From: Methylocystaceae bacterium | Lineage (GTDB): Bacteria > Pseudomonadota > Alphaproteobacteria > Rhizobiales > Beijerinckiaceae | Reading direction: 5' to 3' | DNA: 34,206 nt | Assembly (NCBI GenBank): GCA_009773555.1 | Contig: WSXZ01000066.1 | Location: 1-34,206, forward strand | Shown: positions 6,698 through 33,633 of the stretch, in pieces | Position numbering within the stretch: position 1 is the stretch's first letter | Layout: each line of letters starts with the position of its first letter | Notes under the pieces: model-generated | Database searches by the model: none | Told to the model about the DNA's origin: nothing | The model's input: the letters and a program-made list of their open reading frames with translations, nothing else | Translations under genes and position numbers: made by a program

Positions 6698-6879
6698 CCG
6701 ACCCGGCGCCATGGCGAATTCTGGCCGCTCTTTGGCAAGATCGCGTCTTTGTCAAAATCGCGGTCGGCGGCAGAGTCGTTCTCTCGAGCATCCACGGGCG
6801 CGGCGGCTGTGCACGGCTCTTTGCCCGCAAGGCGACGGCGGAAAGCCGCTGCTTGCGCGTTACGCCCGGAGAGGGTCCG

Positions 6880-7452
6880 ATGAAGGGGAGACTCCTATTC
6901 GCCGCGCTTCTCGCCTGCGTATGCGTCAGCATCGCTCAGGCGCAGATAAGGGCGGAACATCCGCGCCATTGCGTGATGAGCGTCGGTCCGACGCAAATGA
7001 TGTTCAGCGCCTTTCAAGAAAATCAGTCCGACGAGATTTTCTGCCGGCACGTGCCGACGCTCGGTCCGACGATGATCATTCTCGATGCGCGGCAGGTCGA
7101 GCTGCGCGACATGAACATCGAAATCCGCGTGCTGCGCAATGTCGGTCAGGCCGATTGGCGCGACGATCTCGACGCCAACACCGTCGCCGTTTTGCCGCCG
7201 CAGAAATATTTGGCGGACAAGGGCACGACAAGCTTTACGCATAATTTCGTCAGCGACGGAAGCTATGTCGCTCTCGTCAGGGCGACCAGCGACGACGGCG
7301 CCAAGGAATATGTCGGGCAGTATGATTTTTCGGTGGGCGAGCTTGTGGGGGCCGGCTGTGCGCTGGCGATGTGGCGGCGCAAGCGCGCGGCGCCCCGGCC
7401 ACGGTTTGCCCCAGACAAGCCGTCGCCGTCAGCGCTTCGACAGTCGCGTTAG
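6880..7452 (+). CDS. Secreted protein of unknown function
   Basis: A 190-residue protein with a clear Sec signal peptide (Met-Lys-Gly-Arg, a Leu/Ala/Val core, Ala-Gln-Ala cleavage site near residue 21). The mature part starts RAEHPRHCVMSVGPTQMMF and has a second cysteine in EIFCRHVP, so one disulfide is possible. The sequence then looks beta-rich, with a statement-like segment EIRVLRNVGQADW and FTHNFVSDGSYVALV, suggesting an immunoglobulin-like fold, and ends in a weakly hydrophobic stretch followed by an arginine-rich tail. ATG 6880 is chosen because it gives the signal peptide; the longer open frame upstream is not protein-like. It ends 24 bases inside the convergent gene at 7429. No named family was recognised. 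Confidence 0.75.
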   Translation: MKGRLLFAALLACVCVSIAQAQIRAEHPRHCVMSVGPTQMMFSAFQENQSDEIFCRHVPTLGPTMIILDARQVELRDMNIEIRVLRNVGQADWRDDLDANTVAVLPPQKYLADKGTTSFTHNFVSDGSYVALVRATSDDGAKEYVGQYDFSVGELVGAGCALAMWRRKRAAPRPRFAPDKPSPSALRQSR

Positions 7453-27784: not shown

Positions 27785-28732
27785 ATGAAAAAAGCTCTTT
27801 CCGTCGCCGCTCTTCTGGTCGCGCTGACGGGCTCGGCTTTGGCGGCCGATCTTCCCAGCTACAAGGCTCCTCCGCCGCCCCCGCTGCCGCCGCCACCGCT
27901 GTGGAGCGGCTTCTACGTCGGTCTGAACGCCGGCGGGACTTGGGGCGGCAGCAATAACATTTGGACGTCGTCAGCCCCGCTTTACTCCTCCCCCGGAGTC
28001 GGCGGCGCGGCGAATTTATATGCCGCGTATTCCGCGCTCGGGGCTTCGGGCGTTTCGCAGGGCAATACCAGCGGATTCATCGGTGGCGGTCAGATTGGCT
28101 ATAACTGGCAGTTTTGGGGCGGCCGCCTTGTCGCGGGCGTAGAGGCTGACATCCAGGGCGTCGCCAGCGGCAACAGCAACAAGACGTCGGTCACCGCGGC
28201 GGGCGCATTTCCGTTTCTCGGCGCCAGCGAAGTCATTACAACCGCGATCACGACTTCGAAGCGTCTCGACTATATCGGGACGGTTCGCGGCCGACTCGGT
28301 TGGCTCTTCACCCCGACCTTGCTTGTCTACGGCACCGGCGGTCTCGCCTACGGCGGCGTCTCCGTGTCGACCGGCATCGCGCAGTTCAGCAATGACTGCG
28401 CCCAGATCCCGGCGGCGTGTCTCGCGGGCGCCGCTTTCTCGTCCGGAGCCTTTTCCGACACGCGTGTCGGCTGGACAGTGGGCGGCGGCTTGGAATGGAT
28501 GTTCATGCCGAACTGGTCCGCCAAGGTCGAATATCTGTATTACGATCTCGGCAATGTCAGCTACTCGGCGGGCCTCTTGACGACCGTCAACAGCACGATC
28601 ACGGCTTTTCCGGCGGGGAGCATCGCTGGTGTGGTGTCGCAGTCGCAGACTCGCTTCAATGGCAACATCGTCCGCGCTGGCGTCAACTATCACTTCAACT
28701 GGGGCGCCGCCCCGATTGTTGCGAAATACTGA
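27785..28732 (+). CDS. Outer-membrane beta-barrel protein, paralogue 1
   Basis: A 315-residue protein with a 20-residue Sec signal peptide (MKKALSVAALLVALTGSALA), a proline run (YKAPPPPPLPPPPLW) and then an OmpA-like/porin-like 8-strand-type barrel. It starts with the hallmark WSGFYVGLNAGGTWG and has alternating hydrophobic strands such as LDYIGTVRGRLGWLF, VGWTVGGGLEWMFMPNW and KVEYLYYDLGNV. The C-terminus ends in NYHFNWGAA plus a short tail, with aromatic residues in the last strand as expected for assembly by the Bam machinery. An AGAGGA ribosome site precedes ATG 27785. It belongs to a family abundant in Bradyrhizobium and methanotrophs. Its role is probably envelope structure or transport, not determinable. 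Confidence 0.9.
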   Translation: MKKALSVAALLVALTGSALAADLPSYKAPPPPPLPPPPLWSGFYVGLNAGGTWGGSNNIWTSSAPLYSSPGVGGAANLYAAYSALGASGVSQGNTSGFIGGGQIGYNWQFWGGRLVAGVEADIQGVASGNSNKTSVTAAGAFPFLGASEVITTAITTSKRLDYIGTVRGRLGWLFTPTLLVYGTGGLAYGGVSVSTGIAQFSNDCAQIPAACLAGAAFSSGAFSDTRVGWTVGGGLEWMFMPNWSAKVEYLYYDLGNVSYSAGLLTTVNSTITAFPAGSIAGVVSQSQTRFNGNIVRAGVNYHFNWGAAPIVAKY

Positions 28733-29097: not shown

Positions 29098-29982
29098 ATG
29101 AAAAGAATATTCGTCACGCTGGCGCTAGCGCTGACCGCGGGCACGGCCCTGGCGGCTGATCTCCCCATCTACAAGGCTCCGCCGCCACCACCGCCGCCGC
29201 CATTGTGGACAGGGTTTTACGCGGGTTTGAACGCAGGCGGCACTTGGGCCAGCAATAACTCAGTCTATGTGACGAATTTGCCCGCATTTGGAGCGATCAG
29301 CATTCTAAACCTGCCGTTGAGCGGCAGTCAGTCCGCAAATAATGGCGCGGGCTTCATCGGCGGCGGCCAGATTGGATATAATTGGCAGTTTTGGGGCGGC
29401 CGCCTTGTCGCGGGCGTAGAAGCGGATATCCAGGGTATTGCCGGGTCGCGCGGTGGCAGCTCCTCTTGGACAGCCGCTCCGCTGGGTACGATCATCATCG
29501 GGGACTTTCCCTTTCCGCTCAATTTGCTCTCGAACGTCAGCGTAAGGAAGTCGCTTGACTACATTGGCACCGTGCGGGGGCGCCTTGGCTGGCTCTTCAC
29601 GCCGACGCTTTTGGTCTACGGCACCGGCGGGTTGGCCTATGGCGGCGTGAACGTCAATCTGAACAGCTTCCAGGCTCTCTCCTTTGCGGGCGCCCTCCTA
29701 CCCCTTCAAGGCGGGACAGCCAGTGTCTCCGACACGCGGGTCGGCTGGACAGCCGGTGGCGGACTCGAATGGATGTTCATGCCGAACTGGTCGGCGAAGG
29801 CGGAATATCTGTATTATGATCTTGGCAATGTGACGGGATCCGCGGTGAACGTAGCGTTTGGTGGAGCGCCGACGATCGCCTCCGTGTCGCAATTTTCAAC
29901 CCGGTTCAACGGCAATATTGTCCGCGCCGGCGTGAACTACCACTTCAATTGGGGCGCTCCTCCCATTGTTGCGAATTACTGA
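29098..29982 (+). CDS. Outer-membrane beta-barrel protein, paralogue 2
   Basis: A 294-residue paralogue of the gene at 27785-28732. Signal peptide MKRIFVTLALALTAGTALA, mature start ADLPIYKAPPPPPPPPLW, then TGFYAGLNAGGTWASNN. Long segments match the first copy almost residue for residue: GGGQIGYNWQFWGGRLVAGV, GRLGWLFTPTLLVYGTGG, and GWTAGGGLEWMFMPNWSAK. The loop lengths between strands differ, as expected for surface-exposed parts under different selection. Its own terminator follows at 30007. ATG 29098 has a weak purine-rich site (gaggatttcag). The pair arose by tandem duplication including the upstream region. Confidence 0.9.
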   Translation: MKRIFVTLALALTAGTALAADLPIYKAPPPPPPPPLWTGFYAGLNAGGTWASNNSVYVTNLPAFGAISILNLPLSGSQSANNGAGFIGGGQIGYNWQFWGGRLVAGVEADIQGIAGSRGGSSSWTAAPLGTIIIGDFPFPLNLLSNVSVRKSLDYIGTVRGRLGWLFTPTLLVYGTGGLAYGGVNVNLNSFQALSFAGALLPLQGGTASVSDTRVGWTAGGGLEWMFMPNWSAKAEYLYYDLGNVTGSAVNVAFGGAPTIASVSQFSTRFNGNIVRAGVNYHFNWGAPPIVANY

Positions 29983-30105: not shown

Positions 30106-30912
30106 TTGCCTAACCTCGGGCGACGCTGTATCAAATTGATAATCGTTTCCGGCCACGGGCGTCGCGTGTATTGCGAGGATGTTTTCGATCTCATCGATCG
30201 GCTCACGCGCGCCGACAGATTCCCCATTCCCAACAGCTTCCTCAGTGAATTCCTGCGGGCGACAGGCCAACCGCTGCTGTCCGCCGTTCATGCCGCCTCT
30301 TGGCGAAAATCCTATGCCCAGGCGCGCCGAGTCGATCTCGAGCCCGTCGTGCGCGTTGGGTTTGGCGGGATAATGCCGCTCGATTGGCGCCTGCTGGATC
30401 GCGACGATCCGATGGTTAGTAAACTCCTGGGCGAAGCGCTCGAGCTCGACCTCGGCGCCGACGGCTTCTCCATTCCCCTGCGCGGCCGAAGCGGCGAATA
30501 TGGGCTGTTTAGCGTGTGTTGCCCTGAAGACGCTTCTCCCCTGCTGTCGCCGCGCCATGCTCTGATTCGCCGGCTCATGGCGATGAGCGCGATTTTTCAC
30601 TCCAGCGTGCGAGACGCCTTCACAGGAGAATCCCACGTCGACGTGCGGATGTCTGATCCCGAATTGGCTTGCCTGCGCCTCAAGGCCCAAGGAACCGGCG
30701 ATCATGAGATCGGGGTGGCGCTTGGCGCTGGTCCAACTGCTGTGCGCTTCTGGCTCGAAACGGCGCGCGCGCGGCTTCACGCCGTCTCGGTCGCCGAGGC
30801 CGTCGAGGAGGCCTGCAGGATGGGGCTGGTTCAGGTCCGCGCAGAGCGGCTTCGTCCCGCGATCGAAACTGCTCCCGCTGATTTTTCTTCGATCGATCGG
30901 CGGGAGAGATGA
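30106..30912 (+). CDS. LuxR-family quorum-sensing regulator (acyl-homoserine-lactone type)
   Basis: A 268-residue regulator. The autoinducer-binding domain is about residues 28-170: the DLEPVVRVGFGGIMPLDW part and DGFSIPLRGRSGEYGLFSV are the pocket segments typical of LuxR/TraR relatives. The C-terminal helix-turn-helix is about 183-242 (ELACLRLKAQGTGDHEIGVA, then VRFWLETARARLHAVS). The HTH is divergent: the usual LTPRE start is replaced by MSDPE, though the EIG and the V-x-F-x-L pattern are kept. Start is TTG 30106, supported by a gagggcgg ribosome site; GTG 30166 is possible. It overlaps luxI by four bases, so the two are coupled. The signal it binds is probably the product of that luxI. 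Confidence 0.85.
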   Translation: MPNLGRRCIKLIIVSGHGRRVYCEDVFDLIDRLTRADRFPIPNSFLSEFLRATGQPLLSAVHAASWRKSYAQARRVDLEPVVRVGFGGIMPLDWRLLDRDDPMVSKLLGEALELDLGADGFSIPLRGRSGEYGLFSVCCPEDASPLLSPRHALIRRLMAMSAIFHSSVRDAFTGESHVDVRMSDPELACLRLKAQGTGDHEIGVALGAGPTAVRFWLETARARLHAVSVAEAVEEACRMGLVQVRAERLRPAIETAPADFSSIDRRER

Positions 30913-31565
30913 TCGCGCTGCTGCCTGGCGAATCGCGCGCGCTTTTTCCCCGTCTCATGGATGAGATGTATGATCTGCGCCTCGGCGCTGCTCGCGCGCA
31001 TGCCGGTCGGCCGTCCGGCGCTGTCCATCGTTTGGCGGTCGTCGATTATTTTGATTCGCTTGATCCGCTTTACGTTCTTGCGCTCGACGAAATGGAATGC
31101 GTCGCGGGCGCGCTGAGATTGCTGCCGACGACCGGCGTTACGATGTTGAACGACGCTTTCGCGGGCGCGCTGCCGGATGGGTTACGCGTCGAGAGCCCGC
31201 TGATCTGGGAAGCGAGTCGTTTGACGCTGCGCGGCGCCGGCGATTCTCGTGCGACGGACGCCGCCATGAATCGAACGATCGGTCAGCTCGGCGTCGCGCT
31301 GAATGCGATCGCCCAAACCGCCGCGCTGACGCATTTGATCGGCGTTTTCGACAGGTCGATGCATCGGCTGCTGTCGCATCGCGGCTGCGCCGGCGAAACA
31401 TTAGCCCCGCCGATGCGCATCGACGGCGCCGACATGTTTGCTGTGCTCTATGAAGTCGGCGCCGCGATGGACGCGCCGTTCCAAACTCTTGCGGGCGACG
31501 CCTGGGCGCCGCCGATCAATCTTGCCGATCTGGAACGTTTGCGCCAGACGGACTGCCGGTCATGA
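30909..31565 (+). CDS. Divergent LuxI-family autoinducer synthase
   Basis: A 218-residue protein placed right after luxR, with a four-base ATGA overlap. LuxI landmarks are visible at the expected spacing: R24, D46 and D49 in VVDYFDSLDP, R70 in GALRLLPTT, F84, then E101 and R104 in WEASRLTL. At the usual Phe28 and Trp34 positions this protein has other residues (AARAHAG), so it is a divergent member. LuxI enzymes make acyl-homoserine lactones from SAM and an acyl donor; the acyl chain cannot be predicted here. The C-terminal half is the least conserved, as usual in the family. Pairing with luxR supports a self-contained quorum-sensing unit. A non-standard signal is possible given the substitutions. 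Confidence 0.82.
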   Translation: MIALLPGESRALFPRLMDEMYDLRLGAARAHAGRPSGAVHRLAVVDYFDSLDPLYVLALDEMECVAGALRLLPTTGVTMLNDAFAGALPDGLRVESPLIWEASRLTLRGAGDSRATDAAMNRTIGQLGVALNAIAQTAALTHLIGVFDRSMHRLLSHRGCAGETLAPPMRIDGADMFAVLYEVGAAMDAPFQTLAGDAWAPPINLADLERLRQTDCRS

Positions 31566-31995: not shown

Positions 31996-33462
31996 TTAAT
32001 CCGTCAGCGACATAAGCTTCGCTTTAAGGTCGCCGATTTCCAGTTCGGCCTGCACCTGATCGCTGACGTCATATTGCACGCCGAGGAAATACAGCAGGCG
32101 GCCGTCGGCGTCGAAGAGCGGCGTGATGTTGAGCTTGTTGTGAAACAGCGCGCCGTCCTTGCGATAATTGCGCAGCGTGACTTCGATCTGTTCTCGATTG
32201 CGGATCGCGTCGCGCAGCCGCAGTCTTCCTTCTTGATCGCGGTCGTCGGCTTGGAGAAAGCGGCAGTTGCGTCCGATAATCTCGTCGAGTTCATAGCCGG
32301 TGATCCGCATGAACGGTCGATTGGCGTAAATGATCGGCGAGTCTTCGAGGTCGGGGTCCGCGAGCGTGACGCCATTGACGCAGGCGTCGAATATGGTCGT
32401 CAGCATTTTCGGAATGATTTCCGCTTCCTTGCGCAGGGCGAAAAGCTGGCCTTTGTTCTGGCTTCTGGCGCGCGCCCACACCCGATAGGCGCTCGGCGCC
32501 ATGCCGGCGAAACGCCGGAACGCGCGCCGAAAACTCGCCTCGTCGGCGAAGCCGGCGCTGGAGGCAAGCTCCTTGACTGGCTTGGCGCTGGTTTCCAGCA
32601 ACATGCGCGCAGTCTCGACGCGTATCCGATCGATGAACGTCTTCGGCGACTCTCCGGAGGCCAGTTTGAGCCTGCGATGCAGCGTTCGCTCGGACGTCGA
32701 AAGCGCCCGTGCGAGCTCCTGAGCGCTCATTGACGAGTTGGACTGCCGAACGATTCGCTCGGCATCCGACAAAAAGGCGCCGGCGCCTTCGTTCAGCCCT
32801 GTTGTGTTGTAGACGGTCGGGCCGAGCTGCGCGCCTTTGAAGGGCGCGGCCTCGCCCAGGGTGAACTCCGCCGCGATCCGCGCCGCATCGACCCCGCAAA
32901 GCTCTCGAATGACATGCAGAGCGACGTCGATCCACGACAAGGGGCCGGCGGCGGTGACCACTCGACGGTCCTCGATCAGCCGCGCGCCCCAGGCGGCGTC
33001 GATTCGGGCATACCGCTGCTTCAGCTCCTCATGATGCCGCCAACTCGTCGTGCAGCGGCGGCCATCGAGGAGACCCGCCTCGCCGAGAAGAAAAGCGCCC
33101 GATCCACAGCCTGCGATGAGCGCCCCGCGCGCATGGTGGCGGCGTAGCCAGGCGGCGGTCGCGCCAAAGGGCGACATGTCCGGCGGCTTTCCGTCCTCGC
33201 CGGGCCAGAAACTCGGCACGATGATCGCGTCGCAGGTCGTAATGGCGTCGAACGACGCGGCGACGGGGAAGCTCGCCCCCGTGCGATCGCGGATCGACTC
33301 GCCATCCGCGCTTGCCGTCACGACATAGAAAGGATCTTCAGCGCTTTCAGTGGGCGCGGCCGCCCGACCGACGGCGCGCCGCGCGAGCGTCAAAACATCC
33401 GCCAGTCCCGAGAAAGCCGAGCCTAGGCATTCATTTAGGCCGGCGATGACAATCTTTCGCAT
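31996..33462 (-). CDS. GlxA-type (DJ-1/PfpI) AraC-family regulator with C-terminal LOV photosensor domain
   Basis: A 488-residue three-part protein. Residues 1-210 form the DJ-1/PfpI-like domain of GlxA regulators, with C119 at the nucleophile elbow (AGCGSGAFLLGEAGLLDG). Residues about 233-332 are an AraC helix-turn-helix pair (LARALSTSERTLHRRLKLAS, then FADEASFRRAFRRFAGMAPS). Residues about 353-470 are a LOV domain with the flavin-binding motif GRNCRFLQ and its photoactive C400, N432 (NYRKDG) and N442 in the flavin pocket, and Q463 in FLGVQYD, followed by a C-terminal helix. Light would form the flavin-cysteinyl adduct at C400 and change DNA binding. It is divergent from ftsH and convergent to luxRI. 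Each domain call is firm; the fusion is unusual, and light control of transcription is inferred. Confidence 0.9.
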   Translation of the reverse strand: MRKIVIAGLNECLGSAFSGLADVLTLARRAVGRAAAPTESAEDPFYVVTASADGESIRDRTGASFPVAASFDAITTCDAIIVPSFWPGEDGKPPDMSPFGATAAWLRRHHARGALIAGCGSGAFLLGEAGLLDGRRCTTSWRHHEELKQRYARIDAAWGARLIEDRRVVTAAGPLSWIDVALHVIRELCGVDAARIAAEFTLGEAAPFKGAQLGPTVYNTTGLNEGAGAFLSDAERIVRQSNSSMSAQELARALSTSERTLHRRLKLASGESPKTFIDRIRVETARMLLETSAKPVKELASSAGFADEASFRRAFRRFAGMAPSAYRVWARARSQNKGQLFALRKEAEIIPKMLTTIFDACVNGVTLADPDLEDSPIIYANRPFMRITGYELDEIIGRNCRFLQADDRDQEGRLRLRDAIRNREQIEVTLRNYRKDGALFHNKLNITPLFDADGRLLYFLGVQYDVSDQVQAELEIGDLKAKLMSLTD

Positions 33463-33633
33463 CCGTTCAACTTTTGGCGAATTATGACGCCTGTTTGGCT
33501 ATTGCGCCATCCTGACCTAGATTACTTCTAATCTCATCCTGCGCTAGTCGAGGCACCTTCGCCTCCGGCGGGGGATGCATACATATTGACGACGACGCCC
33601 GGCCCGCCGCGGCTCTCGTCATGGAGGTGAAAA
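33463..33633. promoter_or_regulatory. Divergent promoter region between the LOV regulator and ftsH
   Basis: The 171-base gap carries both promoters. At 33520-33533 there is an inverted repeat gattacttctaatc (5-base arms, 4-base loop). A looser pair of tggcg/cgcca lies at about 33477-33508. These are candidate operators for the LOV-AraC protein, but the evidence is only positional. The ftsH ribosome site ggaggtgaaaa at 33623-33633 is clear. Confidence 0.35.

Follow-up and report, generated by a model that had tools for sequence, protein, structure and literature searches.

A LOV-domain DJ-1/AraC regulator of Methylocystis with predicted operators at accessory genes of particulate methane monooxygenase

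The LOV-TF gene and its surroundings

The window, by which we mean the whole 34,206-nucleotide stretch of DNA that was analysed, is from Methylocystis and carries near one end a gene for a LOV-domain regulator, LOV-TF, facing away from an ftsH gene designated ftsH-B (Table 1). The earlier note on this DNA had described an intact DJ-1/AraC/LOV fusion, and a profile search confirmed the reading frame and found all three domains in the order claimed. A DJ-1 domain followed by an AraC helix-turn-helix (HTH) is the GlxA/FtrA order, and NCBIfam models described the front of the protein as FtrA-like and its back as YtvA-type LOV, both with scores below the cut-offs; against FtrA proper (NF006902) LOV-TF reached 153 bits versus a curated cut-off of 425 bits. 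The top PDB match was 3sw1, a short LOV protein (E 5e-32 over residues 350–482), and the AlphaFold model helped little with the LOV part, which lies below pLDDT 50. The LOV signature proposed from C400, N432, N442 and Q463 proved complete, as N399-C400-R401-F402-L403-Q404, N432, N442 and Q463, the residues of a LOV photoreceptor, are unchanged in 21 of 21 orthologues. Pfam and the single-ORF orthologues likewise support a one-component LOV regulator with this domain order. That two genes had been joined by a frameshift or misassembly, a danger the earlier note had raised, is excluded because 21 of the 39 Methylocystis genomes, including the one-contig genome G190, have a full-length single-ORF orthologue; we found no evidence for such an artefact in LOV-TF and give it virtually no chance of being right. 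LOV also sits directly on the DNA-binding domain in EL222, where it stands in front of a LuxR-type HTH; in LOV-TF it stands behind an AraC HTH. The BLADE AraC-LOV chimeras (PMC9614035) share this direct attachment to the DNA-binding domain and are engineered, whereas in LOV-TF the LOV domain follows a natural AraC HTH.

Table 1. Positions in the window of the genes, domains, codons and predicted operators discussed in the text.
Feature	Position	Strand	Remarks
pmoD-type gene, PmoD family, 190 aa	6880..7452	+	PDB 6cpd PmoD, E 1e-14; start set at signal peptide
Second predicted operator, upstream of pmoD-type gene	6712..6738	−	19.3 bits, highest of the 68,360 positions scanned
LOV-TF gene, 488 aa, DJ-1 / AraC HTH / LOV	31996..33462	−	ATG start, 0 internal stops
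LOV (PAS) domain, residues 371–468	32059..32352	−	Pfam PAS_9, 1.8e-21
Adduct Cys400 codon	32263–32265	−	Inside LOV domain
AraC-type HTH, residues 250–327	32482..32715	−	Pfam HTH_18, 1.7e-23
DJ-1/PfpI domain, residues 45–186	32905..33330	−	Pfam DJ-1_PfpI, whole-protein E 2e-13
Elbow column 120, Gly codon	33103–33105	−	Position computed from residue number
Cys119 codon	33106–33108	−	Position computed from residue number
Predicted tandem operator, LOV-TF/ftsH intergenic	33475..33501	−	18.9 bits, LOV-TF-free matrix
ftsH-B, first 191 codons	33634..34206	+	Contig ends inside gene; lone pmoC next in relatives

In 2015 El-Arab, Pudasaini and Zoltowski (PMC4416707) described from Methylocystis Rockwell and M. 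rosea a LOV-TF that combines an amidotransferase-like (ARAC) domain, an HTH and a C-terminal LOV domain. The window protein, which has a DJ-1 (amidotransferase-like) front, HTH and C-terminal LOV domain in a single protein, shares genus and domain order with these McLOV-TFs and is 97% identical to the one at M. rosea SV97 locus L038. The suggestion that the layout was new, with no described family placing LOV behind an AraC HTH and a DJ-1 domain, therefore fails, since El-Arab et al. had published it in the same genus. Their work also lends direct support to the claim of light sensing: full-length Rockwell LOV-TF was insoluble, and its isolated LOV part (337–490) was dimeric in the dark, bound flavin, was bleached by blue light and formed an adduct with a lifetime of 130 s (PMC4416707). 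A short LOV protein is described there alongside LOV-TF (PMC4416707).

The methane-oxidation link is invisible in the window alone because the contig ends inside ftsH-B. LOV-TF and ftsH-B were both present and divergent in 22 of the 24 loci compared, one of the 22 (L043) having only a LOV-TF remnant; L039 and L050 hold only the LOV-TF end. Behind ftsH-B in relatives lies a lone pmoC, 2.3–2.5 kb from LOV-TF in nine of ten genomes and 7.4 kb from it in G277. In G234 two further copies match the PmoC behind ftsH-B exactly, and behind each of the two lie 252- and 420-aa frames that by eye look like PmoA and PmoB. The assembly to which the window belongs lacks the ftsH-pmoC junction and has a 56% homologue as its sole PmoC match; a second ftsH of this genome, on contig C32 (ftsH-A; L055, G000:C32:16140-16691), is 71% alike over residues 7–191. 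The neighbourhood resembles ftsH1-pmoC1Gs of Methylocystis SC2, where a monocistronic pmoC also stands right behind ftsH and where a quality-control role was speculated for the pair with no regulator named; 'AraC' occurs 0 times in the main text of that paper, and its passages on the pair draw no link to light (PMC3794950). Convergent with LOV-TF, the window encodes a LuxR-type autoinducer-binding regulator and a LuxI-type synthase (30106–31565; Autoind_bind, Autoind_synth), and a LuxI match was seen in 17 of the 24 loci, some of which belong to the same genome. Two mutually alike proteins (27785–28732 and 29098–29982), which have copies in relatives, resemble outer-membrane beta-barrels by eye and gave no NCBIfam match.

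Towards the other end of the window lies the pmoD-type gene, whose product has 6cpd as its sole significant PDB match; PmoD is a copper protein associated with particulate methane monooxygenase (pMMO) (PMC6189053). The window protein has no Met and no His in the published CuA columns. Its frame is open further upstream of 6880, and the start at 6880 is supported because in G234, G272, G203 and G310 the whole open frame has only 206 codons for a 202-codon match.

Distribution, relatives and origin of LOV-TF

Full-length LOV-TF orthologues were found in 21 of 39 Methylocystis genomes, with one more split by contig ends, and the 11 that carry names (L028–L038) belong to Methylocystis or to alphaproteobacterial MAGs. 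Across a family sample of 298 genomes from 43 genera, where the best five or fewer candidates per genome were scored, full-length matches occurred in at least 15 genomes, all Methylocystis. A class sample, with the best four or fewer candidates per genome scored, gave 0 of 384 other genomes at E ≤ 1e-70, and a plasmid search matched 236 records, 0 of which covered more than 80% of the LOV-TF query. At four loci (L069, L070, L074 and L260, in genomes G226, G267, G305 and G307) LOV-TF remnants were seen at the same place; the gene has been lost repeatedly there while ftsH-B stays.

We define here a pmoC-linked family of DJ-1/AraC regulators, of which LOV-TF is, judged by sequence, the light-sensing branch. 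Among 42 rows of LOV-less DJ-1/AraC regulators, some of them near-copies (e.g. contigs C4 and C5 of G177), at least 28 have pmoC within 500 bp and at least 23 of these are divergent from it, a count that left out the weak row G241:C3 (31% identity, three stops). Within 6 kb of the 42 rows there is a PmoD-family gene in at least 20, drawn from the 114 PmoD-family matches listed, and ftsH in at least 8, drawn from 8 preselected ftsH rows. In an AraC tree the 8 LOV-TF fronts used formed a single clade (100/98), with 23 LOV-less relatives from Methylocystis as its neighbours. All 21 LOV-TF LOV domains likewise formed one clade (98/96) in a 46-row LOV tree, whose bootstrap was not fully settled; this clade lies beside short LOV proteins and close to those of Methylocystis, and two LOV-like domains of long proteins, which we labelled HK by assumption, fall far outside. 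These two clades fit a single fusion, in which, we infer, a LOV domain from a short-LOV-like protein would have been joined once to a regulator of the pmoC-linked family.

FtrA/GlxA-type DJ-1/AraC regulators have the front 335 residues, the HTH and the operator type in common with LOV-TF. They differ at the elbow of the DJ-1 domain (alignment column 120), where Cys is kept by all 26 LOV-less relatives examined, among them those from Pantoea and Erwinia, whereas all 21 LOV-TFs have Gly. Cys119 of the window protein, put forward in the earlier note as a redox input, lies one residue before the elbow and is Ala in 2 of 21 orthologues; being off the elbow position and not universal, it was rejected as the DJ-1 redox centre. 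The loss of the ancestral elbow cysteine suggests that an older chemical input of the DJ-1/AraC ancestor has probably given way to light or been overridden by it. A small-molecule input at the DJ-1 domain of LOV-TF is possible.

Predicted operators in the window and across genomes

Intergenic stretches of pmoC-divergent LOV-less relatives contain tandem GCCA-type repeats 21 bp apart, and an operator matrix was built from 14 sites of LOV-less regulators, picked by eye, and 0 from LOV-TF. These came from 14 of 26 distinct upstream stretches after 4 near-copies and 8 stretches with no repeat visible near the start were dropped; none of the latter 8 is divergent from a listed pmoC. When the window was scanned with this matrix, the two best positions were those at 6712 and 33475, and the third best reached 10.1 bits. 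As a control, 3.42 Mb of sequence simulated with a first-order Markov model gave 38 matches of at least 12 bits, 5 of at least 16 and 0 of at least 18. The site at 33475 has TTTGGC half-sites from 33473 and 33494 (+ strand), 21 bp apart, one of which begins ~10 bp before the LOV-TF ATG, and the site at 6712 is placed after an ABC transporter frame (ends 6697) and before the pmoD-type gene. These two are the high-scoring ones among six core-pattern matches in the window genome, the other four reaching at most 4.2 bits; over the 39 genomes the core pattern matched 197 times versus 37 for a reversed control. A promoter scan of the LOV-TF/ftsH intergenic stretch found nothing, nor did an Rfam scan.

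We compared the sites in genomes with and without LOV-TF. Before the lone pmoC behind ftsH-B, a predicted operator was found in 10 of 10 LOV-TF genomes examined (13.7–25.4 bits, ~115 bp before the start), and 10 other pmoC copies, two of which were checked for pmoA/pmoB-like frames behind them, scored at most 4.0 bits. The five genomes without LOV-TF gave 14.4 bits in G267, where a LOV-TF remnant is still visible, 16.4 in G215, 5.7 in both G177 and G151, and 0.7 in G241; the site has thus decayed in three of five, perhaps in one event since these three are close kin. The ftsH-B site reached at least 11.3 bits in 22 of 22 LOV-TF genomes and at least 12.1 bits in 10 of 11 genomes examined without LOV-TF (G215, 1.4; G309 has its top-scoring site at a different position, with 14.3 bits at the usual one), so that it does not depend on LOV-TF alone and something else may read it. 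The conserved LOV-TF/ftsH intergenic stretch, which persists without LOV-TF, was therefore rejected as sole proof. No operator was found in the 201 bp before ftsH-A of the window genome (−0.7 bits). For the pmoD-type gene, 16 LOV-TF genomes carry the gene, with site scores of at least 14 bits in 10, 7.8–9.8 in 4, 6.9 in G282 and less than 5 in G292. Without LOV-TF, the score was below 5 bits in G307, G308 and G309, 12.5 at another place in G303, and 19.5 in G310, whose LOV-TF region may be unassembled because only one ftsH was found there. Five non-orthologous PmoD copies scored below 5 bits.

Operator-like sites were also seen elsewhere. Two loci (L135 and L145, in G299 and G304) have sites of 16.1–18.6 bits, and this motif also occurs in G303 and G164. 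In G234 a gene resembling an antibiotic-biosynthesis monooxygenase precedes a LOV-less regulator and pmoC, and a site of 17.9 bits stands before this gene (L304, 1789–1813); a gene annotated as antibiotic-biosynthesis monooxygenase also precedes a LOV-less relative on the M. rosea plasmid pGW6_2.

A possible blue-light input to methane monooxygenase genes

The matches suggest that the three predicted targets around LOV-TF all concern pMMO. We favour, with somewhat better than even confidence, the explanation that LOV-TF, in which a blue-light receptor is joined to a DJ-1/AraC regulator, sets the transcription of ftsH-B, the lone pmoC, the pmoD-type gene and itself. A LOV-TF dimer would bind the tandem TTTGGC-type repeats 21 bp apart, the lit LOV domain would alter this binding, and the changed binding would set transcription of ftsH-B, the pmoC behind it and the pmoD-type gene, with the half-site just before the LOV-TF ATG giving control of its own gene. 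The products of these targets would serve the supply, copper handling or turnover of pMMO, and light could act on them in either direction. A light-gated repair cycle of pMMO resembling photosystem II repair, in which LOV-TF would reset FtsH-B (removing damaged subunits), the lone PmoC (as replacement) and the PmoD-type protein, is a tentative and rather doubtful extension. The layout of LOV-TF is known; within the reach of our searches, its likely function of coupling blue light to pMMO accessory genes is new. The main text of El-Arab et al. (PMC4416707) contains 'pmo', 'methane', 'ftsH' and 'operon' 0 times, the targets being predicted in the present analysis, and no LOV-TF targets were found in the literature searched, which lay outside supplements and most subscription journals.

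The tandem sites could instead belong to the LOV-less DJ-1/AraC relatives or to another regulator, with LOV-TF mainly controlling itself or acting elsewhere. The ftsH-B sites kept in 10 of 11 genomes without LOV-TF speak for such a reader, as does G215, which keeps a 16.4-bit pmoC site and lacks both LOV-TF and any relative at E ≤ 1e-30. However, the window genome and G190 keep their sites in the presence of LOV-TF with no LOV-less relative at E ≤ 1e-30, making LOV-TF the likeliest reader there, whereas G177, G241 and G151 own LOV-less relatives and their pmoC site has decayed. The presumed DNA-contact helices of LOV-TF are moreover, by eye, nearly identical to those of its relatives, and we regard this explanation as unlikely. 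It is more improbable still that the physiological input is redox rather than light, with the LOV flavin or LOV cysteines as sensors as proposed for fungal ENVOY. El-Arab et al. pointed out a conserved N-cap Cys common to LOV-TF and ENVOY (PMC4416707), and C361, taken as that residue, is unchanged in 21 of 21 LOV-TFs; but the adduct and pocket residues are equally invariant, and the orthologous LOV part bleaches under blue light (PMC4416707).

El-Arab et al. also proposed that LOV-TF acts with the short LOV protein through competitive dimerisation (PMC4416707), which we consider unlikely and which does not exclude the regulation of pMMO accessory genes favoured here. Short LOV proteins were present in 17 of 22 LOV-TF genomes versus 5 of 17 without (Fisher p 0.004, kinship ignored; a G267 fragment was not scored as present), and among 30 fairly complete genomes in 14 of 19 with LOV-TF versus 2 of 11 without (p 0.007, kinship ignored). 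Against this, the short LOV protein is missing from 5 of 22 LOV-TF genomes and occurs in those 5 of 17 that have no LOV-TF.

If the favoured explanation is true, light would be tied to a main biological methane sink through a blue-light regulator acting on pmoC, a pmoD-type gene and ftsH. Inhibition of methane oxidation by light has been reported from lakes and is debated (PMC7474682), and what role monocistronic pmoC plays is an open question (PMC3794950); a repair cycle, if true, would give a genetic handle on the light suppression of methane oxidation in surface waters and on the role of the lone pmoC.

The window genome also carries a short LOV protein. Short-LOV genes were rejected as general further targets, only 4 of 21 short-LOV loci scanned having any site of at least 9 bits. 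An operator-like site of 18.7 bits was seen near a short-LOV gene of G057 (L114, around 943).
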